Below are positions 25,162 to 53,616 of a stretch of 64,000 nucleotides of DNA, piece after piece. A program made the position numbers and the translations under genes. Origin of the DNA: Cenarchaeum symbiosum A (GTDB lineage: Archaea; Thermoproteota; Nitrososphaeria; Nitrososphaerales; Nitrosopumilaceae); the NCBI GenBank assembly GCA_000200715.1, contig DP000238.1, positions 556,154-620,153 of the forward strand. The letters run 5' to 3'. How positions within the stretch are numbered: the first letter of the stretch is position 1; every line of letters begins with the position of its first letter. The notes beneath the pieces are model-generated. The model made no database searches. It saw only the letters and a list, made by a program, of their open reading frames with translations, and was not told the DNA's origin.

Positions 25162-25519
25162 TGTATACGTGGCAGTATCGCGCTTAAAAGCGTTATACGG
25201 CCGGCTTGTATACGGGCCCCGGGATTGCAGGATGCCGCGGCCTGCCAAGGCAGCCTCCGTCTTTGCCGCGCATGCAAACAGCGCCCGGGGACCGGCGGCG
25301 CCCTGCCGGAAATACTTGCGGATTAGGCAAAATCTTGCCATCACTATCATCATGCGGGGCTTTGCCGTGCCATGGGGTGCCCCGCATGGGCCAGCTGATC
25401 CCCGTACAAGATTACAAGAGCACAACCTGCAAACCATGGGCTTTGACCATCGGGCGGAACCGTGCACGGGCCGCATCCTGCCCGCGCATTTGATATATGG
25501 CCCGCCGTGAAATATAGAA
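25162..25519. other. intergenic region with two divergent promoters
   Basis: Contains the TATA-like box of PH-like paralogue 2 at about 25183-25190 (minus-strand gene) and that of the HNR protein at 25489-25498 (ATTTGATATA, plus strand). No gene seen between them. Confidence 0.5.
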
Positions 25520-26293
25520 ATGAGCCAGGAGACGCCATGTATCGGGGAATGCTCAAAGTTTCGCGCCATGCGGCCCGAATCTGGTGGCAGGCTGCAGGCA
25601 GGCCAGTGCCTCTGCTGGAACTGCGGGATATGGCTGGCCCCCCATGAATCGCACACAGACGGCGGTCCGTCCCAGGATGCAGGCGGGCCGTACTGCAACT
25701 GCTGCAACCATACGGTCTGCGCGCCCCGCCCGGGCCTTGAAGGCAGTGCAGACCTTGGGCATTTTAGCAGGCCAAAAGCGGAGATGCTAGAAAAAATTGT
25801 GCGGCAGCTAGCGGGAGGGGAGGGCAGATCCTCCATTACACGGTTTATAGATGCAGTACAAAACGATGACCTGCTTGCCATTGGGATACAAGAGCTTGGC
25901 ATTCCGCTCTATGAAATGGTTGATCTGGCGTACACGTACAATCCCCCGAACAAACTCTCCATGCTGCTCGAACTAGAGACGGTGAGAAAAAAGCTAGGGC
26001 ACGTGCCAGATAGGTCCGAGATGGATGAGCATTCGGCCATCTCTGTCTCTGTATACGATGGCGAGTTCCAGTCGTGGGATAGAATGCTCGGGATGCTCGG
26101 GCATGATCCCGGGGCGGATGATCCGCCGGCGCCATCCCCCGGCATGTCCGTCGACGAGATGAAATTGGCAATAAATGACGCACTGCAAAACGAGCCGGAG
26201 ATTTTAGAGCTCTTTGAAAAGCTGTCCAGGGTAGTGCCCCATTTTGACGGGGACGAGCTGGATGGGATAATACGGTCGGTGCGGCAAGACTAG
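25520..26293 (+). CDS. zinc-finger protein with homing-endonuclease-associated repeat (copy 1)
   Basis: 257 residues. The N-terminal ~60 residues hold paired cysteines (CIGEC, CLCWNC, YCNCC, plus one further Cys) that should form zinc ribbons. A helical middle (MLEKIVRQLAGGEGRSSITR) leads to a segment matching the homing-endonuclease-associated HNR repeat: ELETVRKKLGHVPDRSEMDE, then FQSWDRMLGMLGHDP. The C terminus is an acidic helical domain (DEMKLAINDALQNEPEILEL). DNA binding is likely. Start: a TATA box (ATTTGATATA) centred 25 bases before the ATG at 25520. It converges on the SWIM gene, their stop codons overlapping in a CTAG. Confidence 0.65.
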   Translation: MSQETPCIGECSKFRAMRPESGGRLQAGQCLCWNCGIWLAPHESHTDGGPSQDAGGPYCNCCNHTVCAPRPGLEGSADLGHFSRPKAEMLEKIVRQLAGGEGRSSITRFIDAVQNDDLLAIGIQELGIPLYEMVDLAYTYNPPNKLSMLLELETVRKKLGHVPDRSEMDEHSAISVSVYDGEFQSWDRMLGMLGHDPGADDPPAPSPGMSVDEMKLAINDALQNEPEILELFEKLSRVVPHFDGDELDGIIRSVRQD

Positions 26294-28377
26294 GCCTCTG
26301 CGCGCAGCTGCAGGTACTCCAAAAGGATCTCCCTGTCTTCTATACCTAGTGTATCGTATACCGCCTGGATGCTCCTCTTCATGTTGAGGGATCTGAGCCC
26401 TGCCAGCTGTATGGTGGTTGATTCTATCCTCTTGAATATCACATCCCACCCGAGCCCGTCCAGGCAGTAGTGTATTACACCGGAGACCAGGTGGCTGCAA
26501 AGTGTATGATAGTATGTCTCGTTCATGGATTTTCCGCATGTGCATTCGGGGGGCCCTCCCATCCCGGGGCCAAGGCTTGCATATACATTCTCAAACTGCA
26601 CGTACGATATGCCGGAAGGCTTTTTCTCTGTGTTGATCGGCGGGTGTACTCCCTCGTATAGTTCCGGGTGTATTTTGCGCTGGAGATTTTCAAACGTGTC
26701 ATGGATGGCCACAGGTTCTGTGCGCATCCCGTCCTCAAAGTCATCCTCCGACATGGAGTATAGGGTGCGCACAAGGCCAAAATAGATAGCATTTGCCGCC
26801 TCGTAATCTTCTCCGTCAGGTAAGCGTAGGTCCACCTCTTTCATGCAGCCTATAGGAAACGCCGCCTCTTTTCCGTCTGGCATCTCCACTACAGCCAGGC
26901 CGGATTCATAGTTTAGCGACTTTACCAGCACGGTGCTGCCCGAGCTGTCCCCGTACATTATGCGCGCGACTGAAAGCCTCCTGCACGGGATTATCGGGGT
27001 AATCTCGCACCAGTTTCTGATGCCCGCCTCGCCTATCACCTGTATAATCCTGTCCTGTCTGGTCAGCTCTGCTATCTCCCGGCTTACCGTCCTGCATGTA
27101 AACACCACGCCCTGCTCTTCTGCGGGGACCGCCCTTTTGAGGTCGGAGATCACATCTTCTGTGACCTCCTCGTCTATCATCACCTTACAGTGGAATATCT
27201 TTGCTGTGGCCTCAAAGTCGAGGTTTTTCATCATGTCTAGATGCTCGGGCCTGAAGGTATACTCTGTAAGGTCCACGACAAAGTCAAAGCCTCTTGCGTA
27301 CTCTTTGGGGCTCTGCAGCGAGGCAGAATCGGCTAGCACCAGCCCTGCAATGCGCGTTATCTGGTCGTCAAGGTCGTCGAGGTCGCCGCGCTCGAGTGAT
27401 TCGAGCTCCATGATGAACTGGTCCGGCGTTATATTCCTGCCAAAGAACGCCGTCTTTCCCGACAGGACCTTCTCAGTTCTGACCTTTTCCATCATCCGTA
27501 TGTAATTGTCATGCGTGAACAGCTGGTCTGATGTAGGGGACCCTCCGGAGAACGGCCGCTTTCTTACTATGCCGTCCTTTGCCTCGAGATCATCGAGGGC
27601 GCTGTTGAGAATATCCAGCCCGAAGACCATCGCAAGGAGGGGAAACTTGGCCCATATGCTTGTCAGCAGGCGCCTGTAAGTGATTCCGCTCTTTTCCTGC
27701 CCTATCAGCCCGTGAAGGGTCTGCGTTATGTTGGGATACTCTTCTGGGACAGATATGTCGGCTCCAGTCCTTGCAACATTACACTCTTTTACAAGCTCGC
27801 CGGTTATATCGTTGAGCTTTGTCCTCAGGTCTTTCTGGATATACTCTTCAAACGATTCCCGTATGCTGTCGTCTTCTAGCAGTGGGATGGACTTGAGCCT
27901 GGCATAGGTCTCTCTGACGGCATTCTCGGCCTCCTTGTACTCGATAAACTGGGCCTCTAGTATCGCATGTACTAGAAACGACCTGAGAATGTTATAGTTT
28001 AGCAGGCCGGATATCTGTCGGTGAAACCTGTCGCATTGCGCGTGTATCAGCATGTATCTTTGCTCCCATTTGTCATTGGAGAGGTTGGCATTGCGGCTTT
28101 CTGTGCCCTTGCCCGTAGACCGGTGTCCGACAAACTTCAACTTGGAGGCCAGATAGGAAAAATCCTCATAATTGCGTATGTTGTATTTTCTTCTAATCAC
28201 CGACGTCTTGATTCCGTCTATGTAATCTTCGAGCAGTCCGGGCAGGAACACGTGGGGGTATTTTCTGTTGATTTTTAGTACAAGCTCGACTATCTCGTTT
28301 GCACGCCCCAGCTCGTCGGGCCCCATCTGGGCAGTCATGGAATGGCAGGCCTCTTTGAAATCCCCTATCTGTGACAA
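26290..28377 (-). CDS. SWIM-zinc-finger protein of unknown function (copy 1)
   Basis: 695 residues. The clear motif is near the C terminus: C612-x-C614 in PECTCGKSMNE and C627-x-H629 in LCSHLVSGVIH, the CxCx(n)CxH pattern of SWIM fingers, which bind DNA or protein. The rest is long, mostly helical and charged, with no Walker motif or nuclease signature that I recognise (a DDLDDQITRIAGLVLADSAS stretch is notable). No signal peptide. Convergent partner of the HNR protein; the pair is kept together in both duplicated copies, which suggests a joint role, possibly in nucleic-acid handling. Confidence 0.6.
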   Translation of the reverse strand: MSQIGDFKEACHSMTAQMGPDELGRANEIVELVLKINRKYPHVFLPGLLEDYIDGIKTSVIRRKYNIRNYEDFSYLASKLKFVGHRSTGKGTESRNANLSNDKWEQRYMLIHAQCDRFHRQISGLLNYNILRSFLVHAILEAQFIEYKEAENAVRETYARLKSIPLLEDDSIRESFEEYIQKDLRTKLNDITGELVKECNVARTGADISVPEEYPNITQTLHGLIGQEKSGITYRRLLTSIWAKFPLLAMVFGLDILNSALDDLEAKDGIVRKRPFSGGSPTSDQLFTHDNYIRMMEKVRTEKVLSGKTAFFGRNITPDQFIMELESLERGDLDDLDDQITRIAGLVLADSASLQSPKEYARGFDFVVDLTEYTFRPEHLDMMKNLDFEATAKIFHCKVMIDEEVTEDVISDLKRAVPAEEQGVVFTCRTVSREIAELTRQDRIIQVIGEAGIRNWCEITPIIPCRRLSVARIMYGDSSGSTVLVKSLNYESGLAVVEMPDGKEAAFPIGCMKEVDLRLPDGEDYEAANAIYFGLVRTLYSMSEDDFEDGMRTEPVAIHDTFENLQRKIHPELYEGVHPPINTEKKPSGISYVQFENVYASLGPGMGGPPECTCGKSMNETYYHTLCSHLVSGVIHYCLDGLGWDVIFKRIESTTIQLAGLRSLNMKRSIQAVYDTLGIEDREILLEYLQLRAEA

Positions 28378-28446
28378 CTTCTAGACCTGCCCTGCTGCCG
28401 ATATTATACATTTTGAATGCATTCTGGCTGTAAAGAATGCCATGGC

Positions 28447-30117
28447 TTAGAGCCCCAGCAGAGAACCAAAGAACTCTGCTATTGCGTCTAGTATGCCGGG
28501 CTCTTCAGACGGGGCCGCGGCATCTGCAAATATATCATATCTATCTGGCAGCTCGTACCTGCTTACAGAATCTCCCCCTACAACAAACATTACAGCGCCT
28601 TCGTCCGCAAAGGCAAGCCCGCTGGCCCGCTGACCCTCAGTATCTAGCGAGCCCATGTATCCCCTCAGGGCGGGGTCGTACGGCCCGCCAAGCTCGTACC
28701 CGTGCACCTCTGTCTCCTCTGATACAAACAAGAGCAGGCCGTCATCAGAGAACTCTATCTCCCAGATTACATCGGAATGCTCCCCCAGATCGTACGAGCC
28801 GTCGTGGACAGGATTAGTTATGTCGTACGGGGCAGACAGGCTGTACCGTTGGATAGAGTCATCTCCCGATATGAGCATCTCTGTTCCCCCTGGGACAAAT
28901 ACTATTCCGCCTGATTCTGTAATGCCCTCTTTGAGCTCAAAGGATCCTGAGTGGATGGGGCCTGTTATGTCATACGGGGCGTATAGATCATACTGCTCAA
29001 TGGAGATGCTCTCCCCCGGATTTCCGTTTCTAGATACAAATAGAACGGTGCCGTCATCTGATGTGGCCATTCCATATGCGCTACCTCCGTCTTTCAGCTC
29101 TGCCGAGCCCGCGTATACCGGACTGGATGTATCGTGCGGGGAGTGAAGGTCATACCGGTGTACCGCGTCGGGACCGGTAGATACGGTAAGCATGATCATG
29201 CCGTCAGATGAAAAGGCCTCGTCGGTTATCTCTGCGGACTGGCCCAGGGGGCCCTGCGGCGCCTCTATCTGTGCCGATGTGATGTCATATTCTCCTGATA
29301 GCGCATACCGACTCATGGAGCTCTCTCCTGCCACGAACAGCTCTGTGCCCCCGTCTGAAAAGGCAAGGCCGCTTGCAGGCTGTTCACCGGTATCAAACGA
29401 TCCCGCATACTCCATGTTGTCCAGGTCGTACGGCCCGCCAAGCTCGTAACTGTGCACGCCGGTCTCTTCTGATGCAAACATGCTCGTGCCGTCATCAGAG
29501 AACTCTATCTCCCAGATGAACTCTGTCTGGTTTAGACCGTACGATGTATCGTGGATAGGGTCTGATATGTCGTATGGGGCGGAGAGCTCGTACCGTAGGA
29601 CGGAGTTGTCCGACGAGACGAACATGACCGTTCCCCCCTGAGCAAAGACTATCCCCCCTGTCTCCGGGGCGTGCAGCTCAAAGAGACCGGCATGCACGGG
29701 GGCTGATATGTCAAACGGGGAAGAGAGATCGTACCTGTGTATGGATGCGGGCCCGGCACGTATACTCTGGTCGGTAGCAGCCATCATCCCCTCCATTCCA
29801 TTCCGTACCACAAACAGGGCGGCGCCGTCGCCTGAAAATGCCATTCCGACAGCGGAACCGCCTTCTTCGAGCCTGAACGAGTCTGAATATTCGGGATAGG
29901 CCGTATCGAACGGAGAAGACAGGGTATAGTGGTATATTGCGTCGGGGTCGGTCACCGACGTGAATGCATCAAGGCCGTCATCTGAGAATACCATGTCGGA
30001 GACGTATGCAAAGGGCCCGAGGACGGTCCTCTCGGGGTTTGCATATGCGGGGGTGGCGATCGCCAGTGCCGCGGCTATCGAAAGGGCAAGGATGCAACCT
30101 GTACTTGGGGTCTTCAT
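28447..30117 (-). CDS. secreted propeller-like repeat protein with terminal sorting-like motif (copy 1)
   Basis: 556 residues from ATG 30117. A signal peptide (MKTPSTGCILALSIAAALAI, cleavage near AYA-N) is followed by about ten ~50-residue repeats of the pattern 'AFSDDGTxMFVxxxxSxxRYxLSxPYDIxxPxxxGSxxL', arranged as two related halves of ~260 residues, consistent with beta-propeller folding. The tail EEPGILDAIAEFFGSLLGL is the short motif shared by the giant surface proteins, here with only a brief acidic linker and no glycine hinge. The frame extends upstream of 30117, but the conserved palindrome and TATA box fix the start. Probably displayed on the cell surface. Confidence 0.78.
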   Translation of the reverse strand: MKTPSTGCILALSIAAALAIATPAYANPERTVLGPFAYVSDMVFSDDGLDAFTSVTDPDAIYHYTLSSPFDTAYPEYSDSFRLEEGGSAVGMAFSGDGAALFVVRNGMEGMMAATDQSIRAGPASIHRYDLSSPFDISAPVHAGLFELHAPETGGIVFAQGGTVMFVSSDNSVLRYELSAPYDISDPIHDTSYGLNQTEFIWEIEFSDDGTSMFASEETGVHSYELGGPYDLDNMEYAGSFDTGEQPASGLAFSDGGTELFVAGESSMSRYALSGEYDITSAQIEAPQGPLGQSAEITDEAFSSDGMIMLTVSTGPDAVHRYDLHSPHDTSSPVYAGSAELKDGGSAYGMATSDDGTVLFVSRNGNPGESISIEQYDLYAPYDITGPIHSGSFELKEGITESGGIVFVPGGTEMLISGDDSIQRYSLSAPYDITNPVHDGSYDLGEHSDVIWEIEFSDDGLLLFVSEETEVHGYELGGPYDPALRGYMGSLDTEGQRASGLAFADEGAVMFVVGGDSVSRYELPDRYDIFADAAAPSEEPGILDAIAEFFGSLLGL

Positions 30118-30139
30118 TCTGATGGCGCCTTGTGGGTGG

Positions 30140-30161
30140 CATAAAAACCCACTTGGGTTTT
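30140..30161 (-). promoter_or_regulatory. TATA box overlapped by perfect palindrome AAAACCCACTTGGGTTTT
   Basis: The palindrome (30144-30161; two 8-bp arms around CT) overlaps the TATA-like TTTTTATG (30140-30147), which is centred 26-27 bases upstream of the ATG at 30117. The same element is at 53510-53527 with identical spacing, and a degenerate form at 35104-35121. I infer a repressor site, since it covers the TBP/TFB region. Confidence 0.7.
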
Positions 30162-30205
30162 CAGTCCGGATCGGTGCCCATGTAGAACGAGACAATATGG
30201 TTCGG

Positions 30206-33200
30206 TCACAGCCCCAGCAGTGACCTAAAGAACTCTGTTATTGCGTCTATTATGCCGGGTTCCTGTCCTGTCTCCACCCGTGCTACCGCGGGAGTGATTT
30301 TCGCAGAATCCTCTGCCCCCGGGACCGTGTCTGATTTTACGGCTTCCACGGGAATAATCGGCTCTGCCTCCGGTTCGGGCTCTGCGGGGACTGGCTCTGG
30401 ATCCATCTCGGGAACTATCACCGGCTCTGGATCCATCTCGGGCTCTACTGCCTGCACCGGGATTATCACCTCCGGCGCGGGTCCCGTATCCAGTGCATTT
30501 ACGGGCACAGATGACGGGTTTATCCTGTATACTTTGTCATGGGAGACAAGTATTATGCCGGAGTTGTCCCGGAGCTGCATGCTCATGGTCCCAGAGAACT
30601 CGCCTTCCAGGGGCACGGCAAGGCTCTCAAAGGAGCCGTCATTATCATCCCTGTATGACGCCCCGGAGGGGGATATCAGCGACTGCACGTCGCACGTGTA
30701 CAGGCTGCCGGATGCGGCCGCATCCCCCTCGCATTCCCTGTCAAAGAACGCCCCTATCCTGTTATAGTATATCTTGGCCTGGCCGTCTTCACTGGATATG
30801 ATGACCTCCATGTCGTATACGTCAAGGTCATCTGCTGACAGGGGGGATATCACCAGGGGCATGTTTGTCCCTATGATTATCTCGGAGCTCCCCCTTGATG
30901 CGTCCTGTCCATCGGCTGTAAACTCCAGCGAGACGTCGCGCCCTATGCTCGTTATACTGGTGGAGGTTCCGCCGCCACCGCCTCCTCCGCCTCCCCTGGG
31001 ACGGGGATCGGGCTGGGGATTGGGTTGGGAAACAGGCTGGGGATCAGGCTGGAGAGTGTTGGACGCAAAAGCAATTTGATGGTCCATGGAAACTGTCTCA
31101 ACCATGGCAGGCGTATCAGGGCCCATCATACCACTCCCGTCTTGGTTTACCGTTGGCTGTGGGATCTGCTCTTTTGGTTCGTACCGGCTTATGGAATCTC
31201 CCCCTGCCACAAAGAGCCCCGTGCCGTCGGCCGAGAAGGCAAGCCCATCGGCCCGCTGTCCTCCGGTATAGAACGAGCCCAGGTATTCCACCTGATCCAG
31301 ATCGTATGCCCTGCCGAGATCATGGCCGTATACGTGCCTGCCCTCCGAGACAAACATGCGCATACCGTCGGCCGAGAACTCCAGCCCCGAGAGCTGACCT
31401 ACATACTCCTCCAGATCGTACGAGCCGGAGGGTACAGGAGAGGTGATGTTGTATGGAGAGGAGAGGCTGTAGCGGCGGATGGATTCCCCGGCAACCACAA
31501 AGACGTGCATGCCTTCCTCGGAAAAGACAATGTCGCCAGTCCCGTGGACACCGTCCAGTTCAAACGAACCGGAGGCGGCGGGCTCGGATATGTCATACGG
31601 GGAGGACAGGTTGTAGCTGTGGACGGAGGCATTCTTGGCTTCCTGAACGTATTGGTTGCTGTTATATCCATACGAGTACTTGTATCCGCCGTATCTGGTC
31701 ACAAATATTGTGCTTCCGTCTGCCGAAAAAGCAATGCCAGCCGCGTCGTCATCGCCCCCCAGCCGGCCCATACCCACATACAGCGGGCTAGTCGTGTTGT
31801 ACGGCGAAGTGAGGTTGTAGCGGTATATGGCATCATGGCCCGCTATACCCGTGAACATGGCCATGCCGTCGGCCGAGAAGGCCACGTCGTAGACACTTCC
31901 GGACGAATCCAAGCCGTTGCGCGAGGTTACAAGCCGAGGTGATGTAATGTCGTACTGTGTCAGTATGTACCGGCTTATGGAATCTCCCCCTGCCACAAAG
32001 AGCCCCGTGCCGTCGGCCGAGAAGGCAAGCCCATCGGACCGCTGTCCTCCGGTATAGAACGAGCCCAGGTATTCCACCTGATCCAGATCGTATGCCCTGC
32101 CGAGATCATGGCCGTATACGTGCCTGCCCTCCGAGACAAACATGCGCATACCGTCGGCCGAGAACTCCAGCCCCGAGAGCTGACCTACATACTCCTCCAG
32201 ATCGTACGAGCCGGAGGGTACAGGAGAGGTGATGTTGTATGGAGAGGAGAGGCTGTAGCGGCGGATGGATTCCCCGGCAACCACAAAGACGTGCATGCCT
32301 TCCTCGGAAAAGACAATGTCGCCAGTCCCGTGGACACCGTCCAGTTCAAACGAACCGGAGGCGGCGGGCTCGGATATGTCATACGGGGAGGACAGGTTGT
32401 AGCTGTGGACGGAGGCATTCTTGGCTTCCTGAACGTATTGGTTGCTGTTATATCCATACGAGTACTTGTATCCGCCGTATCTGGTCACAAATATTGTGCT
32501 TCCGTCTGCCGAAAAAGCAATGCCAGCCGCGTCGTCATCGCCCCCCAGCCGGCCCATACCCACATACAGCGGGCTAGTCGTGTTGTACGGCGAAGTGAGG
32601 TTGTAGCGGTATATGGCATCATGGCCCGCTATACCCGTGAACATGGCCATGCCGTCGGCCGAGAAGGCCACGTCGTAGACACTTCCGGACGAATCCAAGC
32701 CGTTGCGCGAGGTTACAAGCCTAGACAAATCTATGGTAAATGGTATGGGTAATTCATATTCTTGCACATAGTCTTCCTGCAGTATGAACATCTTGGTACC
32801 ATTGCCTGAGAATGCCAGCCCGGTGGCATCATTGTCCTGCAGGTCTATGGATCCTGATCTGTTCAGCGAGGACAGGTTGTACGGCTCGGCTAGGTCGTAC
32901 TGATCCAGCATACTATACTCCATCAAGAACAACCTCGTTCCCTCCGGCGAGAAGGCCATGTCCAGGATTGATGTCTGGATATCTTGCGTTGAGTTGTATT
33001 CCGCCGTGGAGACATCATACGGCACAGGCAGCTTGTATGTCATTATCTGCCTGTAATTAGACACGAACATCATGTCCCCAGTCGTCGAGAAGTAAAGCCC
33101 TGTTCCATAGTAACGCCCGCCATACAAATCATACGATCCTACCTGCCGTGGTGCAATGATCTCGTACGGCTCGGACAGAGAGTATGTGTGCACAGACAAG

Positions 33201-35077
33201 CGGCTGCTATCTATGTATGAGAGTACGAACAACAAGGTGCCGTTAGCCGAGAAGGAAAAGTCAATGGTATTGCCATCTTCCGGACCCACGTATACGGAAT
33301 CCACAAATGAGGAGTCGGTGGTATTGTACGGCTGCGACAGGTCGTACCTGTACATATGATGGTCGTACCTACCCAGCATGAACATCTGGGCGCCGTCATC
33401 AGAGAAGACCAGTCCCTCGAAATAATCATTTTGTCCTCCGGTATGAAATATTAGATCACGTTCCGGAGCGGCAATGTCATACGTATGGGGCAGGTGATAT
33501 TCTTGCACATAGTCTTCCTGCAGTATGAACATCTTGGTACCATTGCCTGAGAATGCCAGCCCGGTGGCATCATTGTCCTGCAGGTCTATGGATCCTGATC
33601 TGTTCAGCGAGGACAGGTTGTACGGCTCGGCTAGGTCGTACTGATCCAGCATACTATACTCCATCAAGAACAACCTCGTTCCCTCCGGCGAGAAGGCCAT
33701 GTCCAGGATTGATGTCTGGATATCTTGCGTTGAGTTGTATTCCGCCGTGGAGACATCATACGGCACAGGCAGCTTGTATGTCATTATCTGCCTGTAATTA
33801 GACACGAACATCATGTCCCCAGTCGTCGAGAAGTAAAGCCCTGTTCCATAGTAACGCCCGCCATACAAATCATACGATCCTACCTGCCGTGGTGCAATGA
33901 TCTCGTACGGCTCGGACAGAGAGTATGTGTGCACAGACAAGCGGCTGCTATCTATGTATGAGAGTACGAACAACAAGGTGCCGTTAGCCGAGAAGGAAAA
34001 GTCAATGGTATTGCCATCTTCCGGACCCACGTATACGGAATCCACAAATGAGGAGTCGGTGGTATTGTACGGCTGCGACAGGTCGTACCTGTACATATGA
34101 TGGTCGTACCTACCCAGCATGAACATCTGGGCGCCGTCATCAGAGAAGACCAGTCCCTCGAAATAATCATTTTGTCCTCCGGTATGAAGTACACTTGCAT
34201 GCTCAAACCCTGTAAGCCTAGGGGATATACCAAATATCTCTTCACCGTAGTCGGACAGGACAGTAGGCTCAAAGTACAACAACGGCTGCGCATACCTGAC
34301 GACCTCTTGCCTGTTTTCCTCCGTGAGTCGGAATTTGATTGCTCCGGGGTTTTTCACGTCTACAAGTTCCATTTCTGATAGCGTAATTCCAAGCGACGAC
34401 ATAGTATCATTTCTTACCTGGATCCTCTCAGGTTGTATGGCAACGGTGTCAACCGTGTCATCAAATACGATCTCCAACACGCCCGTCTGTCTATCCATAT
34501 AGGCGAAAAGTACGCTAGTTGTGTAATTTACATCGCGTTCATCGCCACGATCATAGCCGCGTTCATCGCCACGATCATAGCCGCGTTCATCGCCACGATC
34601 ATAGCCGCGTTCATCGCCACGATCATAGCCGCGTTCATCGCCACGATCATAGCCGCGTTCATCGCCACGATCATAGCCATTATCTCTGTTCTCTACCACC
34701 GTAATCGTTCCTGTATGCCACGGGTGCACCGAACAAAAGTAAGGATAATCCCCTGGTTCCTCATGAAATATTCTGGAATATGATTCCCCCCTCTCTACGC
34801 TACCACTGTCGAAGAGGTTGTCTTCCTCCCCTATCCCTACTCCACTGGTCACTGTGTGGAAAAACATGTCTTCATTGATCCACGTTATCTCGTCACCCTG
34901 TTCAATTATGACATCGCTTGGAATGTCGCATTCATTGGTCTCTTCACAACCCTGCATGTATGAATTCTCTGATATTATGATGGTTGCTCCGGAACGATCT
35001 GCGTATGACGTGGTAGTGATTGCTACTGCTGCAATAATAAAAAACGTGAAAAACCAGCCAATATTCAGAACCTTCAT
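30206..35077 (-). CDS. giant secreted cupredoxin-propeller surface protein
   Basis: 1623 residues. A signal peptide (1-26) is followed by a plastocyanin-like copper domain (about 30-130) with candidate ligands His74 (MFFHTVTSG), Cys115 and His118 (YFCSVHPWHTG); the usual axial Met position is His121. Next come six GYDRGDER repeats (134-181), an Ig-like module, and about twenty propeller-type repeats (AFSADGxxxFV, RYxLSSPYN) with two internal tandem duplications. Then a Pro-rich stretch, nine glycines, a ~120-residue beta domain with two Cys, an acidic linker and the tail GIIDAITEFFRSLLGL. Probably exposed at the surface; copper suggests electron transfer, but this is inference. Confidence 0.82.
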   Translation of the reverse strand: MKVLNIGWFFTFFIIAAVAITTTSYADRSGATIIISENSYMQGCEETNECDIPSDVIIEQGDEITWINEDMFFHTVTSGVGIGEEDNLFDSGSVERGESYSRIFHEEPGDYPYFCSVHPWHTGTITVVENRDNGYDRGDERGYDRGDERGYDRGDERGYDRGDERGYDRGDERGYDRGDERDVNYTTSVLFAYMDRQTGVLEIVFDDTVDTVAIQPERIQVRNDTMSSLGITLSEMELVDVKNPGAIKFRLTEENRQEVVRYAQPLLYFEPTVLSDYGEEIFGISPRLTGFEHASVLHTGGQNDYFEGLVFSDDGAQMFMLGRYDHHMYRYDLSQPYNTTDSSFVDSVYVGPEDGNTIDFSFSANGTLLFVLSYIDSSRLSVHTYSLSEPYEIIAPRQVGSYDLYGGRYYGTGLYFSTTGDMMFVSNYRQIMTYKLPVPYDVSTAEYNSTQDIQTSILDMAFSPEGTRLFLMEYSMLDQYDLAEPYNLSSLNRSGSIDLQDNDATGLAFSGNGTKMFILQEDYVQEYHLPHTYDIAAPERDLIFHTGGQNDYFEGLVFSDDGAQMFMLGRYDHHMYRYDLSQPYNTTDSSFVDSVYVGPEDGNTIDFSFSANGTLLFVLSYIDSSRLSVHTYSLSEPYEIIAPRQVGSYDLYGGRYYGTGLYFSTTGDMMFVSNYRQIMTYKLPVPYDVSTAEYNSTQDIQTSILDMAFSPEGTRLFLMEYSMLDQYDLAEPYNLSSLNRSGSIDLQDNDATGLAFSGNGTKMFILQEDYVQEYELPIPFTIDLSRLVTSRNGLDSSGSVYDVAFSADGMAMFTGIAGHDAIYRYNLTSPYNTTSPLYVGMGRLGGDDDAAGIAFSADGSTIFVTRYGGYKYSYGYNSNQYVQEAKNASVHSYNLSSPYDISEPAASGSFELDGVHGTGDIVFSEEGMHVFVVAGESIRRYSLSSPYNITSPVPSGSYDLEEYVGQLSGLEFSADGMRMFVSEGRHVYGHDLGRAYDLDQVEYLGSFYTGGQRSDGLAFSADGTGLFVAGGDSISRYILTQYDITSPRLVTSRNGLDSSGSVYDVAFSADGMAMFTGIAGHDAIYRYNLTSPYNTTSPLYVGMGRLGGDDDAAGIAFSADGSTIFVTRYGGYKYSYGYNSNQYVQEAKNASVHSYNLSSPYDISEPAASGSFELDGVHGTGDIVFSEEGMHVFVVAGESIRRYSLSSPYNITSPVPSGSYDLEEYVGQLSGLEFSADGMRMFVSEGRHVYGHDLGRAYDLDQVEYLGSFYTGGQRADGLAFSADGTGLFVAGGDSISRYEPKEQIPQPTVNQDGSGMMGPDTPAMVETVSMDHQIAFASNTLQPDPQPVSQPNPQPDPRPRGGGGGGGGGTSTSITSIGRDVSLEFTADGQDASRGSSEIIIGTNMPLVISPLSADDLDVYDMEVIISSEDGQAKIYYNRIGAFFDRECEGDAAASGSLYTCDVQSLISPSGASYRDDNDGSFESLAVPLEGEFSGTMSMQLRDNSGIILVSHDKVYRINPSSVPVNALDTGPAPEVIIPVQAVEPEMDPEPVIVPEMDPEPVPAEPEPEAEPIIPVEAVKSDTVPGAEDSAKITPAVARVETGQEPGIIDAITEFFRSLLGL
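31181..32721 (-). repeat. two near-identical 755-bp direct repeats, period 786 bp
   Basis: 31181-31935 and 31967-32721 match almost base for base (one visible change: codon for Ala versus Ser in RADGLAF / RSDGLAF). Each encodes a ~260-residue five-blade unit of the surface protein. The period is a multiple of three. Confidence 0.9.
32756..34188 (-). repeat. two apparently identical 692-bp direct repeats, period 741 bp
   Basis: 32756-33447 and 33497-34188 show no difference that I could find by eye. Each encodes about 230 residues of propeller-type repeats in the surface protein. The period is a multiple of three, so copy-number change preserves the frame. Confidence 0.9.
34535..34678 (-). 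repeat. six perfect 24-bp tandem repeats encoding GYDRGDER
   Basis: The unit on the plus strand begins GCGTTCATCGCCACG and repeats six times without change. It forms a charged spacer between the cupredoxin domain and the rest of the protein. Not a CRISPR: there are no spacers. Confidence 0.93.
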
Positions 35078-35099: not shown

Positions 35100-35121
35100 C
35101 ATAAAAACCCACTTGAATTTT
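35100..35121 (-). promoter_or_regulatory. TATA box with degenerate palindrome of the giant cupredoxin gene
   Basis: AAAACCCACTTGAATTTT (35104-35121) keeps the left arm and the TATA overlap of the element at 30144-30161, again centred 26-27 bases before the ATG at 35077; the right arm has two changes. The flanking GGTGGCATAAAAACCCACTT is the same in all three promoters. Confidence 0.65.
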
Positions 35122-35183
35122 CACGGGCGAATTTGGGCTAGTGTCTACACCAACTCTGATCCGCAGAATTAAACCGATAGATC

Positions 35184-36224: not shown

Positions 36225-37997
36225 TTAACGCTTGAGAAAATGCTCAATCATCTCGCCCCAGTTGGTCCGTATTATCCCCATCATCTTGCGCTTTTCATCA
36301 TTTGACTCTTCGTCTTCAAGGCGCGCCCACGATGCTATGAGCAGGCGCAGGCCAGACCACATGTCCCGGAGGCGCTTTACGGCCTCGTCATGTTCTATGT
36401 CGTCCGGTATGTTCTCCACTATAGACATCAGATTGTTGTATGCACTGTGGCTTGTATTCATCTTGATTATGGCGACCCCGCCCTCCAGGCTGATGTCAAA
36501 GAACAGCGGGTTGTTGTAGCTGGCATTTTGAAAGACCACCCGTATCTTGTTTTCAATTATGTCGTTTATGAACCCGTTCATGTCATCGGTTGCCACCAGC
36601 CCGTCAAGCTCCTTTTGGATGTGCTCCTTTCTTGTCTGCTCGTCCTGTGTTGTAATCTGCTCGTCGGTCGTCCCCCTGTTTCCGCCCTCTGTCCTGCCCC
36701 TGAACTTGTCCGTGGGATCCGGGCCGTGCCTCTTGGGGTCGGACGAGCGCGTGCCTTTTCTCTGTATTGTAATCACCTTCCGCATCTGCCGTATGCGGGC
36801 CTGCAGCCGCTTGACAATGTGCGCCATGTCCTTGTCATCCTCGATGATGCTCTCCATGGCCGGGTTGTCATGGCTCTCCACCCCGTATAACTTGGTCATG
36901 GCGGTAAAGGTGGTGGCGTCTTGCTTGTTGTTGGTTATGCCAAAGAACTCGTCTAGCGCGGGCGGAAATTCTATCTCTGCCCCCCACCAGCGCTCCACCG
37001 GATCATAGGTGATGACCAGATTTTGGTCCATGCCAATCTCCCTGCCCTCCCTGACTATCGACACGCCCAGGTTGAAGTTTGCGTGGCGGCCGTGGGGCTG
37101 CCTTCCGGCGTCATCCCCTGTATCTGACAGCTTCCTGGCCTCTTTTTTTGCAAATGCAAAGCGCAGTGTGACTGCCTGGGGCTTTCCATCCCTGTCTTTG
37201 ACCTTTATGACCTCCTCCGGCTTTTCACCATCTGGCTGGAACATCGGCTCCCTGTCCCATGGCGGGGGTGCGGAGGAGTTTTTCATCTGGTATAGCGGGT
37301 CGTTTGGCCTCAGGTGCCTGTCGGCTGAGACCTCGTACGAGTTGTTTACGGATATCATCCGTATATCCAGTTTTTTAGAGCCCAAAAACCTGCGGTATAT
37401 CCTGCCTATCAGCTTCTCCGAGTTTGCAATCATTGTAGACGACTTTTTCCACGAGCACCGGTCCAGGCCGGACCAGACTACGACGGTCCCTGATTTGTAC
37501 GATCCCGCGCCAGACATGTCCCTGAGAATATCCGGCAGCTTTGCACGCTTTGGTTCCGGCACATCCCGCATGTTCTTGCCCTGAATTTCGTCTAGATCCA
37601 GGTATGTGTGCAGCACCTCCCCTGGCTTTTGCCAGCTGTACACGTCGACCCTCCTGCACTGGGACAGGGATGAATACGGGAGGCCCATGCCGAACCTGCC
37701 TATGCCCCTTCTCGCCCTGCGCGTGCCCTCTCCGAACCTCAGAGATTCCCAGAGATCTTCTTTTGTCATGCCCGTCCCGTTGTCCGTTACAATTATCTCA
37801 TGCATGCGCTCCACCATGTTCGCCAGGGAATCTTCTATCTTGTCCTTGCAGAAAATCTCTATCTTGTCCGCGTCAGCCTCAAATGAGTTGTCTATGATCT
37901 CGGCAATCGCATATGCCGGATTCTTGTACCCGCCGTACCGCATTGAATCAATTAAATTCTCGTTTGACAGGATGCTGCGGCTCTTAGTCATTTCCAC
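36225..37997 (-). CDS. MORC/MutL-like GHKL ATPase
   Basis: 590 residues with an N-terminal Bergerat-fold ATPase: N box AEIIDNSFEAD (about 32-42), G1 box DNGTGM (72-77), G2 box GIGRFGMGLPYSS (98-110). This order and the length fit the prokaryotic MORC-like ATPases found beside restriction genes. The C-terminal third has charged helices (DEQTRKEHIQKELDGLVATD) and an acidic end. ATP-driven dimer clamping on DNA is the family's expected mode. Its start overlaps the helicase stop by ten bases, so the two are coupled. Last gene of the minus-strand operon. Confidence 0.8.
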   Translation of the reverse strand: MEMTKSRSILSNENLIDSMRYGGYKNPAYAIAEIIDNSFEADADKIEIFCKDKIEDSLANMVERMHEIIVTDNGTGMTKEDLWESLRFGEGTRRARRGIGRFGMGLPYSSLSQCRRVDVYSWQKPGEVLHTYLDLDEIQGKNMRDVPEPKRAKLPDILRDMSGAGSYKSGTVVVWSGLDRCSWKKSSTMIANSEKLIGRIYRRFLGSKKLDIRMISVNNSYEVSADRHLRPNDPLYQMKNSSAPPPWDREPMFQPDGEKPEEVIKVKDRDGKPQAVTLRFAFAKKEARKLSDTGDDAGRQPHGRHANFNLGVSIVREGREIGMDQNLVITYDPVERWWGAEIEFPPALDEFFGITNNKQDATTFTAMTKLYGVESHDNPAMESIIEDDKDMAHIVKRLQARIRQMRKVITIQRKGTRSSDPKRHGPDPTDKFRGRTEGGNRGTTDEQITTQDEQTRKEHIQKELDGLVATDDMNGFINDIIENKIRVVFQNASYNNPLFFDISLEGGVAIIKMNTSHSAYNNLMSIVENIPDDIEHDEAVKRLRDMWSGLRLLIASWARLEDEESNDEKRKMMGIIRTNWGEMIEHFLKR

Positions 37998-39601
37998 ACA
38001 TCTTCCCAGTTTGCAAATGCATCTACTATGCTGTTAAATCCTGGCAGGTTTATATCTGTCACGGTGACCACGTCGCATTCCTTGGAACCGCCCATCTTCG
38101 GGCCCCGTATGGCCCTGCCCATCATCTGGCTGTAAAGAATCAGGGACTTAGTGGGGCGGGCTATGAGAACGGCCGATGTCTTGGGCGCGTCAAAACCGGT
38201 GGTCAGCACGCCGAAATTGCACATTATCCTGGTATCTGCAGTGTCCTCCCTAAAGTGGTTGATCAGGGAGTTTCGCACGTCCTTTGGGGTGTCGGAATCT
38301 ACATAGGATGCATCGTGCCCCATTGTGTGCAGTACTAGCGATATGTCGCGGGCATGGCGTATGCCGGCGGCAAACACTATGATGCGCCTGTGGTCTCTGG
38401 CAAGCCGCTTGATCTTGTCAATTATCAGCATGTTCCGCTTGGCATCGCGGGCCAGCTTGTCAAGTATGTCGTTGGGTATTTCAAGTGATTTTGCAATTCT
38501 TTCCATGTCGGAATTCGTCAGCATGCCGTCATGCCTTATCTGCTCAATGTTGGGCTTTGCCAGGTATCCATCCTTTATCAAAAAGCTTACGGGATCCGTG
38601 CCTGTCTCTATCGTCACTTTTTTTTCGTTAAAAAACTCTGCAAGCTTTCTATCTTCAAGGGGGCTGTTCCACGTCCTGCCGGGGGTGGCACTAAGGCCGA
38701 CAAGGTTGACATCATGCTTTTCCACCAGATAGCCAAGCACAAGCTTGTATGTCTCTGCAATGGCCTGGTGGGCCTCGTCAATTATTACCAGCGATGCCCT
38801 GTCGGCCAGCGTGGTCAGCAGCATGCTGTTGGTCCGCGCCCGCCTGTACACCTTGGAGAGGCCTGCAACGATCAGGCCCGACCTGCATTCGCGGCCAAGT
38901 ACGTCCGTATCATGCCCCCCAAACAGCCTGTAAATACTGACATCTCTGTTCCCGGTGTGCCTCCATGCCGACTTGAACTCTTCTATGGCCTGCTCGCACA
39001 ATTCCTCGCTGTATGCAAGCCAGATTACTAGCGATGAGGGGTTTTCCAAAAGCAGGTCGGCCACAACCCGCATCGCAATCCGAGTTTTTCCCCCGCCCGT
39101 TGGAACATGTAGGAGGACGCGCCCTCCCTCATGTTCCAGAATGTCCTTGATTCTGCTGACTGCGCCAATTTGATACTCAAACAGGGGCCGTTCTGCCTTG
39201 ACCAGCTCAATATCCGGCGGGCCTTCGTCCGGCCGGTGTTCGATCCACGGTACGCCAAAGAACCCAAAGAGAGCCTGCTCTGACTCTGAATTCTTTCTAA
39301 AAGACATGCGGGTTATGCTCTGATACGCGTCCTCCGCACTGTCCATCCCCAGTCTTTTTGCGAGCCTGGTTATGTCGTCCTGCCTCATGCTCATAACTAT
39401 GGCACTGCGCATATCCTTACTGCGCAGCATCTCTGCATGCGACATCCTGTCCAAGACGAGGGATGCCAGGGCGTGCAGCTGTGTCTCTTGCCCTAGTGCG
39501 TGCAGGATGTCTATGCAGTTTTTGCCGAGAAACACGTCTTGTATCTTGACTATGCCCATGTTTGTAATTGCTCTTTCTAGTTCACGGTTTTCAGGATGCA
39601 T
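37988..39601 (-). CDS. superfamily 2 DEAH helicase of a defence operon
   Basis: 537 residues. Walker A VPTGGGKTRIA (about 166-176), DEAH box IIDEAHQA (273-280), LSATPGRTW motif III, and motif VI QMMGRAIRGPKMGG. This is the COG1061-like helicase/translocase arrangement seen in restriction systems. A ~140-residue N-terminal extension of unknown fold (helical, charged) precedes the ATPase core. It starts 18 bases after the PAPS-reductase-like gene and overlaps the GHKL ATPase gene, so it is in the middle of one operon. DNA translocation or unwinding is the expected activity. Confidence 0.85.
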   Translation of the reverse strand: MHPENRELERAITNMGIVKIQDVFLGKNCIDILHALGQETQLHALASLVLDRMSHAEMLRSKDMRSAIVMSMRQDDITRLAKRLGMDSAEDAYQSITRMSFRKNSESEQALFGFFGVPWIEHRPDEGPPDIELVKAERPLFEYQIGAVSRIKDILEHEGGRVLLHVPTGGGKTRIAMRVVADLLLENPSSLVIWLAYSEELCEQAIEEFKSAWRHTGNRDVSIYRLFGGHDTDVLGRECRSGLIVAGLSKVYRRARTNSMLLTTLADRASLVIIDEAHQAIAETYKLVLGYLVEKHDVNLVGLSATPGRTWNSPLEDRKLAEFFNEKKVTIETGTDPVSFLIKDGYLAKPNIEQIRHDGMLTNSDMERIAKSLEIPNDILDKLARDAKRNMLIIDKIKRLARDHRRIIVFAAGIRHARDISLVLHTMGHDASYVDSDTPKDVRNSLINHFREDTADTRIMCNFGVLTTGFDAPKTSAVLIARPTKSLILYSQMMGRAIRGPKMGGSKECDVVTVTDINLPGFNSIVDAFANWEDVWK

Positions 39602-39619
39602 GATCTGTATATTATGACA

Positions 39620-40459
39620 TTACAAATGGCAGACGGTGCATGGCGTCTTGTCGTCGTCATCGTCAAGCGCGTCGGATAGCACGTCCATCAACGGGACGTT
39701 CTTTCTCTTCTCCTTTGCCTTTTTGAGGCTCTTTTCATGGTTTGCCATTATGTCGTCTCTCCTGTCTAGCAGTTGGGTCAGGGTCTCGCCCTGCGACCAG
39801 GTATACTGGCTTCCTTTCATGCCCTGCGCGCTAAAGTTGGCATCGCCAGCGACCCCTGCGTCCTTGAGGACCTTTTGTTCTATGGCCACCGCACGTTTGA
39901 ACAGTTCGGGGTGATGGTCCGCCAGCCCTACCCACTCTGCCTTTCTCTGGAAGAAGCAAAAGTAACAGCCTGAGCGGGTGCGCCACTTGTAGTATTCCGG
40001 GAGGTTTATCCCCGCATCATCAAGTATCTTGATGACGCCGGCGTGGTCTATGCCGTCGTCAATGAACGGAAACATGGTCTTTATGTTGGGCTTTGTGGAG
40101 ACGTAACCGGTACGGTTCTTTTCATCGGCCCTTATGGCCACGTATGATATTACCTCCTCGTCCCCGAGCCAGTCTTCTAGCGGCTTTATCTTGAGCAGAT
40201 TGGTGCACCAGCGCATCTGAGGGGAAGGCAGGGCTCCCCTGAACACCTCGAAATAATGGTCAAAGCTCCTAGTCGAGTTGAGCTTGGTTATCTTCCTGCC
40301 CAGCACTACCTCGAGCTTTGCCAAGTATGCGTATGTCTCGGGCAGCTCGGCCCCTGTATCGCAGAAAAAGTATTCCATGTCCGGCACCTTGTCGCGCATG
40401 TATACTGCAAGCGCACTCGAGTCCTTGCCGCCCGATATGCCGCAGACCTGCTTTACCAT
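39620..40459 (-). CDS. PAPS-reductase/DndC-like ATP pyrophosphatase
   Basis: 279 residues of the PP-loop family. The ATP-binding loop is GISGGKDSSALAVYM (7-21). Conserved cysteines include Cys85 (MRWCTN), CYFC (165-168, in RTRSGCYFCFFQRKAEW) and a C-terminal CTVC (274-277). The GCxxC segment followed by a basic stretch is typical of DndC-type proteins, which activate DNA or tRNA for sulfur insertion, more than of assimilatory PAPS reductase. The C-terminal ~60 residues are strongly charged (DALDDDDDK). No dndD or dndE homologue is present. Position in a helicase/GHKL operon argues for DNA modification or sensing rather than sulfate assimilation. Confidence 0.75.
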   Translation of the reverse strand: MVKQVCGISGGKDSSALAVYMRDKVPDMEYFFCDTGAELPETYAYLAKLEVVLGRKITKLNSTRSFDHYFEVFRGALPSPQMRWCTNLLKIKPLEDWLGDEEVISYVAIRADEKNRTGYVSTKPNIKTMFPFIDDGIDHAGVIKILDDAGINLPEYYKWRTRSGCYFCFFQRKAEWVGLADHHPELFKRAVAIEQKVLKDAGVAGDANFSAQGMKGSQYTWSQGETLTQLLDRRDDIMANHEKSLKKAKEKRKNVPLMDVLSDALDDDDDKTPCTVCHL

Positions 40460-40463
40460 GCGA

Positions 40464-40634
40464 TCACCGTATCTTGGAGGCCAGCCCGTCGAACTCTTTC
40501 TTGGTCACGGTAAGGCAGAACAGGACCTTGTTCGGCTTTTTTGCGTTCTTGATCATGGGGTAGAACTTGATTGTGTACTTGCCGTCGGTCTTTGTGACTT
40601 CGTATGGGCGCTCTCCTATTTTTTCCCTCATCAT
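40464..40634 (-). CDS. 56-residue protein leading the defence operon
   Basis: MMREKIGERPYEVTKTDGKY and FCLTVTKKEFDGLASKIR make a compact basic protein, probably a small beta-rich fold. Its stop is four bases before the ATG of the PAPS-reductase-like gene, and a TATA-like box (CATAAATA on the minus strand) is centred about 24 bases before its ATG, so it is the first gene of the operon. No family recognised; a small DNA-binding or partner subunit is plausible. Confidence 0.6.
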   Translation of the reverse strand: MMREKIGERPYEVTKTDGKYTIKFYPMIKNAKKPNKVLFCLTVTKKEFDGLASKIR

Positions 40635-40653
40635 GTTATAGCATTACTTCCAC

Positions 40654-40663
40654 GTATTTATGT
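40654..40663 (-). promoter_or_regulatory. TATA box of the helicase/GHKL/PAPS operon
   Basis: TATTTATG on the plus strand (CATAAATA on the coding strand), centred about 24 bases upstream of the ATG at 40634. Confidence 0.5.
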
Positions 40664-40834
40664 GCGCCCTTACCGAGTAGGTCAAGATCATCTTCGTAGC
40701 CACAAGGCGCACTTATGAACATGGATGCCATGCTGAGGACGTCATGCTGATCGGAAGAATGTGAGATCGCATCTGTGTGGCCTACTCTTGAGATCCGTTA
40801 GTATGTAGATAAAAACAAGCAGTTCCATTAGAAA

Positions 40835-40846
40835 CGGTTAAAACCA
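40835..40846 (+). promoter_or_regulatory. TATA box of the DUF262 gene; decides a TTG start
   Basis: GGTTAAAACC is centred 26 bases upstream of the TTG at 40867. With leaderless spacing elsewhere in the window, it supports TTG as the initiation codon. CATATAG at 40851-40857 is a second, less well placed candidate. Confidence 0.45.
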
Positions 40847-40866
40847 CATACATATAGTCGATTTGT

Positions 40867-42636
40867 TTGTCTAGCATTTGTAGCGCCAACACTGATTCAT
40901 TGGGTGGCATACTGAATGGAAAAACTCGCTATACCATACCCGATTATCAGAGAAGATATATTTGGCCATCCGAGAGCGTCGAAATTCTATACGAAGATCT
41001 GGTGCTAGATTATGATGAAAGCGGAGAAGGGTACCTACTAGGCCCAATTGTAACCAAACAAGTATCTCCTAGATGTAAGGAAATCATAGATGGCCAGCAG
41101 CGCTTGATTAGCATGACGCTTTTGTTCTGTACGCTACGGGATTGTGTGGTTGAAAAACATCCACCACCCCCTGACGGCAGAGCGACTTTTGAGAAGTTCA
41201 TAAAATCTATTAACATTGCCATACAGGATGATAAAGGAGAACCCCTAATCGAATTAAACAATCGTAAAGCACGTGAGATTTTCAAGAAAATATGCGCTAG
41301 TTCAGACTGGAAACAAAAAAAACTTAAACACCGCCTGTTCTCGAACTATTTTGAGTTATTTAGCAGTGTGGAGGAGCTATGCAGTAAACGTTTTAAAGAA
41401 AGCAAAACGTATGGCGACGGAATAACCGCGATTAGAGAGTTGTTTGACAGGCTCAAGGCATACACCTATTTCATATCTGTTATGATACAGCATGATGATT
41501 ACACATTTCCCGTCTTTCAATCCCTCAATTCAAAAGGACAACCATTACACCAGTCAGATCTAATCAAATCCCATTTGTTAAGCATAGCTAACAAAAATGG
41601 CAAAAAATTCTACGATGAAGTTATTGGCAAATGGGATCAGATAACCAATCTACCAGAGAAGGAAAGTAAAAAAATTGATGAATTGCTCTACCATACAGCA
41701 CTATCCCGTGAGTGCGAGGATAAAACATCTGCCAAAGAAATCCGTAAGAATGACATGTACAAGAGCACTAAATACATAAAAACTCCTAATCAGATAAATG
41801 ATTATCTAGAAAATCTAGAGGAAGATGCCGAAATTTATAAAAAAATAGCCAATCCAGCAGCATTAAAAACCACTATTGACAGATATGCCCATATTCTTTA
41901 TGGAGCTGATCAAATTGGCGCTCGGTATTTTAAAAGAGCCATAATTGCTACACATAGAAAGAAAATAGATTCTGATGCTGTTAAACTGCTAGATTGCTTG
42001 GTCAAGTTCTTTTTTGTGTACAGGACGATTTGTAAGAAAGACATTGATCTATTGAAAAGCATTGCACATACTGTCACATGTAAAATCAACCAGAAAAAGG
42101 ATCTGGGCGAAATATTATGCAGCATATTGATAAATGATAAAGGACGTCAGAATGTAGGGTACGATGAATTTGCCAAAAAAATAAGAGAGAGGACAGATAA
42201 TCTTACAAACAATGTACTCAAATACATACTTTATTCGATCGAGTATAAGCTACAGGAGCCGCGTCCGGTAAAAAATACCCCCAATCTTGAATTGGAGCAT
42301 ATTCTTCCCCAAAAACCTGACAAAAAAGACTGGCACAATGCACCAAAACCAGATGAATATAAAAACGATCTAGGTAATGTCACGTTAATCAAAGAGAAAT
42401 TTAACAAAGACATAAAAAATCATGGTTTTATCAGAAAACGTGACGATGTGAAATCTGGTTACAAAGCATCGAAGTTGGAAATTAACCGACTTTATCTTAA
42501 TAATTACAATACGTGGGATGTGAAGCAGATAGAGGAACGCAGGGAGAATCTGTGCAAAAAAGCAGAGGAGATCTGGGATCTGTCGGAATATACCAAAATG
42601 GCCGAAGCGTACAAGGAAAAATCCAAACGCGGATGA
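40867..42636 (+). CDS. DUF262/DUF1524 fusion, GmrSD-like modification-dependent nuclease
   Basis: 589 residues. The DUF262 (GmrS-like, ParB-related NTPase) half shows IPDYQRRYIW (24-33), EIIDGQQRLISM and FQSLNSKGQPLHQSDLIKSH. The DUF1524 HNH-nuclease half shows LELEHILPQ (474-482), a conserved His/Asp region and LGNVTLI. Fused enzymes of this kind are type IV restriction systems that cut modified (for example glucosylated hydroxymethylcytosine) or phosphorothioated DNA. Start codon is TTG. The gene is far more AT-rich than its neighbours and rich in AAA/AAT codons, so it was probably acquired recently. It diverges from the PAPS/helicase/GHKL operon. Confidence 0.85.
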   Translation: MSSICSANTDSLGGILNGKTRYTIPDYQRRYIWPSESVEILYEDLVLDYDESGEGYLLGPIVTKQVSPRCKEIIDGQQRLISMTLLFCTLRDCVVEKHPPPPDGRATFEKFIKSINIAIQDDKGEPLIELNNRKAREIFKKICASSDWKQKKLKHRLFSNYFELFSSVEELCSKRFKESKTYGDGITAIRELFDRLKAYTYFISVMIQHDDYTFPVFQSLNSKGQPLHQSDLIKSHLLSIANKNGKKFYDEVIGKWDQITNLPEKESKKIDELLYHTALSRECEDKTSAKEIRKNDMYKSTKYIKTPNQINDYLENLEEDAEIYKKIANPAALKTTIDRYAHILYGADQIGARYFKRAIIATHRKKIDSDAVKLLDCLVKFFFVYRTICKKDIDLLKSIAHTVTCKINQKKDLGEILCSILINDKGRQNVGYDEFAKKIRERTDNLTNNVLKYILYSIEYKLQEPRPVKNTPNLELEHILPQKPDKKDWHNAPKPDEYKNDLGNVTLIKEKFNKDIKNHGFIRKRDDVKSGYKASKLEINRLYLNNYNTWDVKQIEERRENLCKKAEEIWDLSEYTKMAEAYKEKSKRG

Positions 42637-42782
42637 CGGCAAATACAGGATAACACACGGGACAGTCGATAAACAGTTAATTGCGTGCCTGTCCGGTTGC
42701 ACGATATGGATGGGCAGTAGATGCACACACGGGACCGCTCAGCGTCTGCCTTTGGCGGTCCGCGCCAAAAGCGCAAGGCGTG

Positions 42783-42818
42783 CCCCCCCCCCCCCCCCCG
42801 AGTAAATTTCACTCGGCT
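42783..42818 (+). repeat. 17-C homopolymer followed by a hairpin, upstream of subtilase 2
   Basis: Seventeen consecutive C (42783-42799) run into CCGAGTAAATTTCACTCGG, a 6-bp stem (CCGAGT/ACTCGG) around a TAAATTT core that could be the TATA element. The ATG of the subtilase is at 42864. Such a tract is prone to slipped-strand mispairing; changes in length would alter promoter spacing. Confidence 0.8.
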
Positions 42819-42863
42819 GTTCTAGCAGGTGGCATAGCCTTGGGCCTGCACAGACGCGGCCGC

Positions 42864-48737: not shown

Positions 48738-48844
48738 GGGGACAGTCCACACGTGCTGCGTATACAAAGCAGGCATGACGCCGGTACATGAACAAAACGG
48801 CGGCTCCTGAGACCGCCTAGAAGACATCCCATGCCCCGCGTATT

Positions 48845-48852
48845 TGATATAT
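48845..48852 (+). promoter_or_regulatory. TATA box of HNR protein copy 2
   Basis: TGATATAT, centred 25 bases before the ATG at 48874, as in copy 1 (25491-25498 before 25520). An upstream in-frame ATG at 48868 is ATA in copy 1, so 48874 is the conserved start. Confidence 0.6.
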
Positions 48853-48873
48853 GGCCTGCCGCAAAACATGGAA

Positions 48874-51749: not shown

Positions 51750-51818
51750 CTTCTAGACCTGCCCTGCTGCCGATGTTATGCATTTTGAATGTATTCTGGC
51801 TGTAAAGAATGCCATGAC

Positions 51819-53483: not shown

Positions 53484-53505
53484 TCTGGTGGCGCCTTGCG
53501 GGTGG

Positions 53506-53527
53506 CATAAAAACCCACTTGGGTTTT
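53506..53527 (-). promoter_or_regulatory. TATA box overlapped by palindrome AAAACCCACTTGGGTTTT, copy 2
   Basis: Perfect palindrome at 53510-53527 over the TATA-like TTTTTATG (53506-53513), centred 26-27 bases before the ATG at 53483. Same geometry as at 30140-30161. Confidence 0.7.
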
Positions 53528-53616
53528 CACAGCCCTGATTAGTGTCCGCTCTGGTTCTTGCTAGTATACGCCTCTGGAATCCGCAGGACAGTGTGAGGCG
53601 AAATTCGCATAAAAGC

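Follow-up and report, generated by a model that had tools for sequence, protein, structure and literature searches.

Why should several genes for surface proteins share one palindrome directly over their TATA boxes? The question arose in a stretch of 64,000 nt (the window; positions 556154-620153 of the single-contig genome, 2,045,086 bp) of Cenarchaeum symbiosum A, a sponge symbiont. Here AAAACCCACTTGGGTTTT occurs exactly in two promoters (A1 and A2, Table 1) and with two mismatches in a third (B1, 35104-35121), and a whole-genome search placed a fourth copy (B2) at genome position 623739, just outside the window, with two mismatches and the same sequence as the 35104 variant. The initial annotation had read the three window sites as an operator for the repression of a surface regulon, and the positions it gave were confirmed, with five palindrome matches observed against 0.04 expected in shuffled sequences. 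The geometry that it described was also borne out: at all three window sites, on the minus strand, the order is palindrome, TATG, 22 nt and ATG, with the centre of TTTTTAT falling, at an equal offset each time, about 27 nt short of the ATG, and all four copies point towards their gene with one fixed spacing to TATA and ATG. The element is non-random, lies directly upstream of and overlapping the BRE/TATA of surface-protein genes, as had been proposed, and bears signs of constraint. We consider it quite likely that it is the old, inherited core and proximal promoter of one orthologous blue-copper gene of the Nitrosopumilaceae, ammonia-oxidising archaea of the sea, spread with the 5' module of that gene by duplication and fusion, a reading that draws together the identity of the copies, their spacing, their specificity, their orthology and their co-inheritance with the N-terminus. 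Statements on the genome as a whole draw on searches with patterns and profiles and on stretches sampled from it.

Table 1. Promoter element copies, associated genes and duplicated blocks in the window
Feature	Position	Strand	Evidence
Promoter element copy A1, TGAAAACCCAAGTGGGTTTTTATG (holds palindrome 30144-30161 and TATA run)	30140-30163	-	R1 profile match, 17.3 bits; sequence
TATA box TTTTTATG, centre about 27 nt before the ATG at 30117	30140-30147	-	sequence
Promoter element copy A2 (palindrome 53510-53527), equal to A1 in sequence	53506-53529	-	R1 match, 16.8 bits
Promoter element copy B1, TGAAAATTCAAGTGGGTTTTTATG	35100-35123	-	R1 match, 15.7 bits; R2 match
Gene A1: signal peptide, beta-propeller-like repeats, tail FFGSLLGL	28447-30117	-	translation; no Pfam match
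Gene A2: A1 paralog (87% identity); sub-threshold WD40 match	51819-53483	-	sequence comparison
Gene B1: signal peptide, plastocyanin-like (Copper-bind) domain, propeller repeats, tail FFRSLLGL	30206-35077	-	PF00127 at residues 53-127
Duplicated block copy 1 (gene A1, ORF 26290-28377, promoter element)	25481-30163	.	blastn, 92.9% over 4709 nt to 48835-53529
Duplicated block copy 2	48835-53529	.	blastn to copy 1

The origin of the element is indicated by the few other places where it is found. Besides the four copies, the home genome holds two-mismatch palindrome sites only at 1774975, in the promoter of a blue-copper gene, and at 1986846, which is unrelated, and sites with three mismatches are at control level. 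The gene behind the site at 1774975 encodes a blue-copper protein of 331 aa that is secreted and has a PEFG-CTERM tail, and the promoter of this gene, AAAACCCAAGTGAGGTTTTTATG, is the palindrome plus one extra A. Over the N-terminus of B1, identity with the stand-alone blue-copper protein encoded at genome position 1775021 is 64%. Promoters of blue-copper (plastocyanin-like) genes in other Nitrosopumilaceae have CTGRAAATYCCAGTGAGGTTTTTATGTAT with unchanged spacing, and orthologs in other genera, found by protein similarity, have AAAATCCCAGTGAGGTTTTTATG at equal distance from the ATG. From the first G of GGTTTTTATG to the ATG the distance is 33 nt at the blue-copper gene, as it is at most of the orthologs, and 32 nt at the A and B genes.

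Searches with profiles and exact patterns demonstrated that the element is nearly confined to this gene. Profile R1, built from 16 such blue-copper promoters, found six sites in the 2.05-Mb home genome at E<=1, namely two tandem blue-copper genes and the four palindromes, and nothing else. The stricter profile R2, built from other genomes and holding no C. symbiosum sequence, found five of these six at E<=5, missing one palindrome and again adding nothing else. The profile scores of the four palindromes were modest, with E values of 0.01-0.16 per genome. Among 101 genomes of the family, all 10 exact matches to CNNAGNGAGGTTTTTATG were directly upstream of the start of a blue-copper ORF. The 20-base version AGWGAGGTTTTTATGTATSC matched 31 times in about 85,000 prokaryotic species. 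In 30 cases the match is followed, at a distance of 32-38 nt, by the ATG of a gene with a cupredoxin-type signal-peptide N-terminus, and all but two matches were in records named as members of Nitrososphaerota or as 'archaeon'. One match lay in a Phycisphaerales bin that holds the same gene and looks mis-binned, and the sole match without the gene, in Poribacteria, is within chance. A class-wide search gave no convincing match outside Nitrosopumilaceae, and the element was not found in the literature on Nitrosopumilus promoters, transcription start site maps and plastocyanin regulation. The element can also be lost, since the blue-copper gene of the other Cenarchaeum genome has AGGTTTTTATTT only and gives no profile match. 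Other blue-copper genes (L064, L076, L079, L083 and L084) have a different promoter type, AAGGATTTTTAT, sometimes with the dyad AATCC-N6-GGATT.

Alignment of 29 promoters placed the peak of conservation at -15 to +16 around AGGTTTTTAT, with the consensus CTGRAAATYCCAGTGAGGTTTTTATGTATCC. Conservation extends upstream past a normal BRE, with A at -10 in 28 of 29 promoters and G at -3 in all 29, and the A-rich stretch and CCAG, which lie outside the usual BRE, are conserved in orthologs. The version at the four propeller genes lacks one base, reading AAGTG-GGTTTTT in place of AAGTGAGGTTTTT. The TATA run of the element lies within the 25-30 nt or so upstream of the start codon that are typical of leaderless core promoters, and occupies the same place as the TATA of generic promoters in C. 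symbiosum and one related genome (-29 to -24), which suggests that the transcripts may be leaderless. A neighbouring gene of another kind has its own well-conserved, different promoter, indicating that conservation of whole core promoters may be ordinary here. A per-column comparison with neighbouring promoters was rejected as a sign of stronger constraint, being circular, because the blue-copper loci had been picked by the motif. Also discarded as regulatory was a conserved block farther upstream in relatives, the inverted repeat TTCTAAAGTTGTACCAGTTTAGAA, which is the 3' end of the upstream ORF (...KLYQFRKN stop); this identity explains its likeness to the copper motif discussed below.

The exact identity of the copies might simply mean that they are too young to have diverged, and for A1 and A2 this is true. 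The homology of their 4.7-kb blocks (92.9% identical) ends exactly at the upstream edge of the palindrome (30163/53529), and one block duplication covers both perfect palindromes, so that their identity represents one event. Duplication of whole promoters, which the initial annotation had named as the finding that would undo its proposal, does apply here: one pair is a block duplication, and the element moves with the 5' end of the gene. Its statement that the coding sequences differ fails for this pair, whose genes are 87% identical within the duplicated block, and is to be qualified in general, as all the signal peptides are related far above shuffles. Recent duplication is nevertheless an unlikely explanation of the element as a whole, and is already contradicted as such, because the element is retained across genera of Nitrosopumilaceae and because B1 and B2 (35104 and 623739) are a second, older pair, with upstream flanks about 64-74% identical and coding starts about 80% identical, in which the element is nonetheless 100% identical. 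The B promoters share one identical run of 30 nt, TGAAAATTCAAGTGGGTTTTTATGCCACCG, within noncoding sequence that is 71% identical overall (column-shuffle p 0.0014). This run lacks the perfect dyad, indicating that the stretch is probably constrained, though not as a palindrome. A dimeric repressor that binds AAAACCCA-N2-TGGGTTTT across BRE/TATA and silences surface-protein genes is less probable still. Placement over BRE/TATA and exact identity are what such an operator would be expected to show, the ancestral element is partly symmetric here (AAAA.C.CAGTG.G.TTTT), and the relative L066 reads AAAAACC-N6-GGTTTTT. However, the perfect dyad is confined to the recently duplicated A pair, the B pair, for all its 30 identical bases, has 6 of 8 arm pairs, the right arm is nothing more than the T-run of the TATA box, and one-mismatch palindrome sites in eight genomes outside the home genome are unrelated, none being at a blue-copper promoter. 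Of the two weak dyads that can be drawn, one over the TATA box as originally proposed and one at CTGGAA-A-TTCCAG, the latter is the axis of best symmetry in orthologs (0.60-0.62 complementary), and its covariation there was not above shuffles or consensus. Repression found no support, and neither did the palindrome as functional unit: the B pair and the orthologous promoters retain the element without a perfect dyad, and the recipient genes, rather than forming one functional class independent of common descent, share their 5' module by descent. A surface regulon marked by the FFRSLLGL tail fared no better. The C-terminal region with the F/W-F-x-S-L-L/F-G tail occurs in at least 22 further ORFs, including two subtilases in the window, none with an R1 or R2 match, and blue-copper genes that lack the tail have the element. 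Judged from these distributions, tail and element are independent.

It is possible, though we hold it with some doubt, that a dedicated regulator, for example a copper- or redox-responsive one, acts on the conserved upstream part CTGRAAATYCCAG, and that the element-bearing genes form a small cupredoxin regulon. Conservation upstream of the normal BRE and a dyad-like consensus are in keeping with this, each element-bearing gene encodes or descends from a cupredoxin N-terminus, and in Nitrososphaera viennensis plastocyanin transcripts are lowered in copper-limited cells (PMC7785015). Gene function and these transcripts hint that the element genes may respond to copper. However, in most relatives one gene per genome bears the element, a pattern that descent accounts for with no need of a regulon; the element is missing from further blue-copper paralogs of these genomes, and the dyad does not covary. 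The promoter motif of copper limitation in N. viennensis, TTCSGSMTTTGWACYANT, which varies in position and strand (PMC7785015), is a different sequence, and was not found at -35 to -70 of the C. symbiosum element genes. With similar reserve, we can conceive that one dedicated factor, either a regulator or one TFB, reads the 31-bp element as a cupredoxin programme, and that surface proteins of the symbiont joined it by repeated capture of the 5' module. Convergent with the blue-copper gene is one for a secreted product with AHTTVxVGxYxIEAGWxIEPPVVG and no Pfam match (L198:5898-6536:- and about 20 relatives; in C. symbiosum L055:6030-6728:-); in Nitrosopumilus this gene has a conserved upstream TTCGANATTTGTACCAAT, about two mismatches from TTCSGSMTTTGWACYANT, which is absent in C. 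symbiosum.

Inheritance of a blue-copper promoter, the reading that we prefer, is further supported by genes that acquired the N-terminus. The blue-copper gene of relatives is directly preceded by a CFI-box-CTERM gene, which has a promoter of its own, AGAGTACAATTTTTATTT. The C. symbiosum counterpart of this CFI-box gene, whose promoter is CCAAGTGAGGTTTTTATG, is a chimera in which a cupredoxin N-half is joined to a C-half 59% identical to the ordinary CFI-box protein. The AGNGARGTTTTTATG promoter is found at CFI genes whose N-terminus is of the cupredoxin type (in C. symbiosum, L224, L227 and probably L133), whereas ordinary ones have AGAGTACAATTTTTATTT. The A and B signal peptides align with that of the blue-copper protein at scores exceeding those of 500 shuffles. 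As far as the sequences indicate, the promoter follows the 5' module, and genes that gained the cupredoxin or signal-peptide N-terminus also carry its promoter. The promoter of CFI-box-CTERM genes (L198:4190-5020:+ and relatives), conserved as AGAGTAC(A/G)A(T/C)TTTTATTT, is another core promoter of the family that is specific to one gene.

Several features of the surrounding genes were observed along the way. A1-type propeller repeats recur across giant ORFs of the C. symbiosum genome, which form a very large family (up to 12016 codons, 239 matches; for example G000:C1:765000-805000 and 912000-943000), many of which end in the same C-terminal region with its F/W-F-x-S-L-L/F-G tail. In the other Cenarchaeum genome (G001), a B1 query matched cupredoxin parts only. 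The two subtilases of the window (11104-17349 and 42681-48737) are paralogous surface proteins with the tails WFRSLFGG and WFASLFGR and no copy of the element. Defence-like genes lie among the surface genes at 36225-42636 and 56871-61893, including HATPase, ResIII helicases, a PAPS-reductase-domain protein and GmrSD, with a type III-like methylase and ResIII pair between B2 and A2.

In the history that we propose, the ancestral promoter would be a sequence of about 31 bp, CTGRAAATYCCAGTGAGGTTTTTATGTATCC, belonging to one plastocyanin-like PEFG-CTERM gene. TBP would bind TTTTTATG and TFB would bind GTGAGG just upstream, the spacing points to a leaderless mRNA, and the A-rich stretch and CCAG farther upstream would tune the promoter, probably through contact with TFB or with an activator or repressor specific to the gene. 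In the C. symbiosum lineage, this promoter and the signal peptide would have been copied as one piece, in some cases along with the cupredoxin domain, to the two B and two A genes for propeller surface proteins and to one CFI-box-CTERM gene, and the recipient proteins would probably be expressed on the programme of the copper protein. The one-base-shorter element of the A pair reads as a perfect palindrome by happenstance, which illustrates how a core promoter can produce a striking palindrome as a side effect. The interest of the element lies in its near-perfect specificity across prokaryotes and in the recurrent capture of promoter plus N-terminus. It provides a nearly gene-specific promoter element for abundant archaea that are uncultured or slow-growing and about whose gene regulation almost nothing is known. 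It is also a case, open to testing, in which promoter and signal peptide spread jointly and build new surface proteins in a sponge symbiont.

Comparison with known systems places the element among several of them. The protein of the ancestral-promoter gene has the same domain as PDB 5fc9, a Blue (type 1) copper domain protein (phmmer 9.5e-12), a likeness of proteins that carries no information on the promoter. The N. viennensis motif TTCSGSMTTTGWACYANT is likewise conserved upstream of copper-protein genes in an ammonia-oxidising archaeon, but its sequence differs from that of the element, and its position and strand vary whereas the position of the element is fixed. With archaeal leaderless core promoters (BRE/TATA, recognised by TFB/TBP) the element shares a TATA about 27 nt before the ATG and a purine-rich stretch directly upstream; unlike the generic promoters here, which have a weak TTTAAAT/TTTATA consensus only, it holds to one sequence for about 31 bp and is peculiar to a single gene family. 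Promoter capture, or shuffling of 5' modules by partial gene duplication, is similar in that promoter and N-terminus move jointly onto unrelated C-terminal parts, and differs from the present case in that here the modules are archaeal cupredoxin modules, apparently captured more than once.
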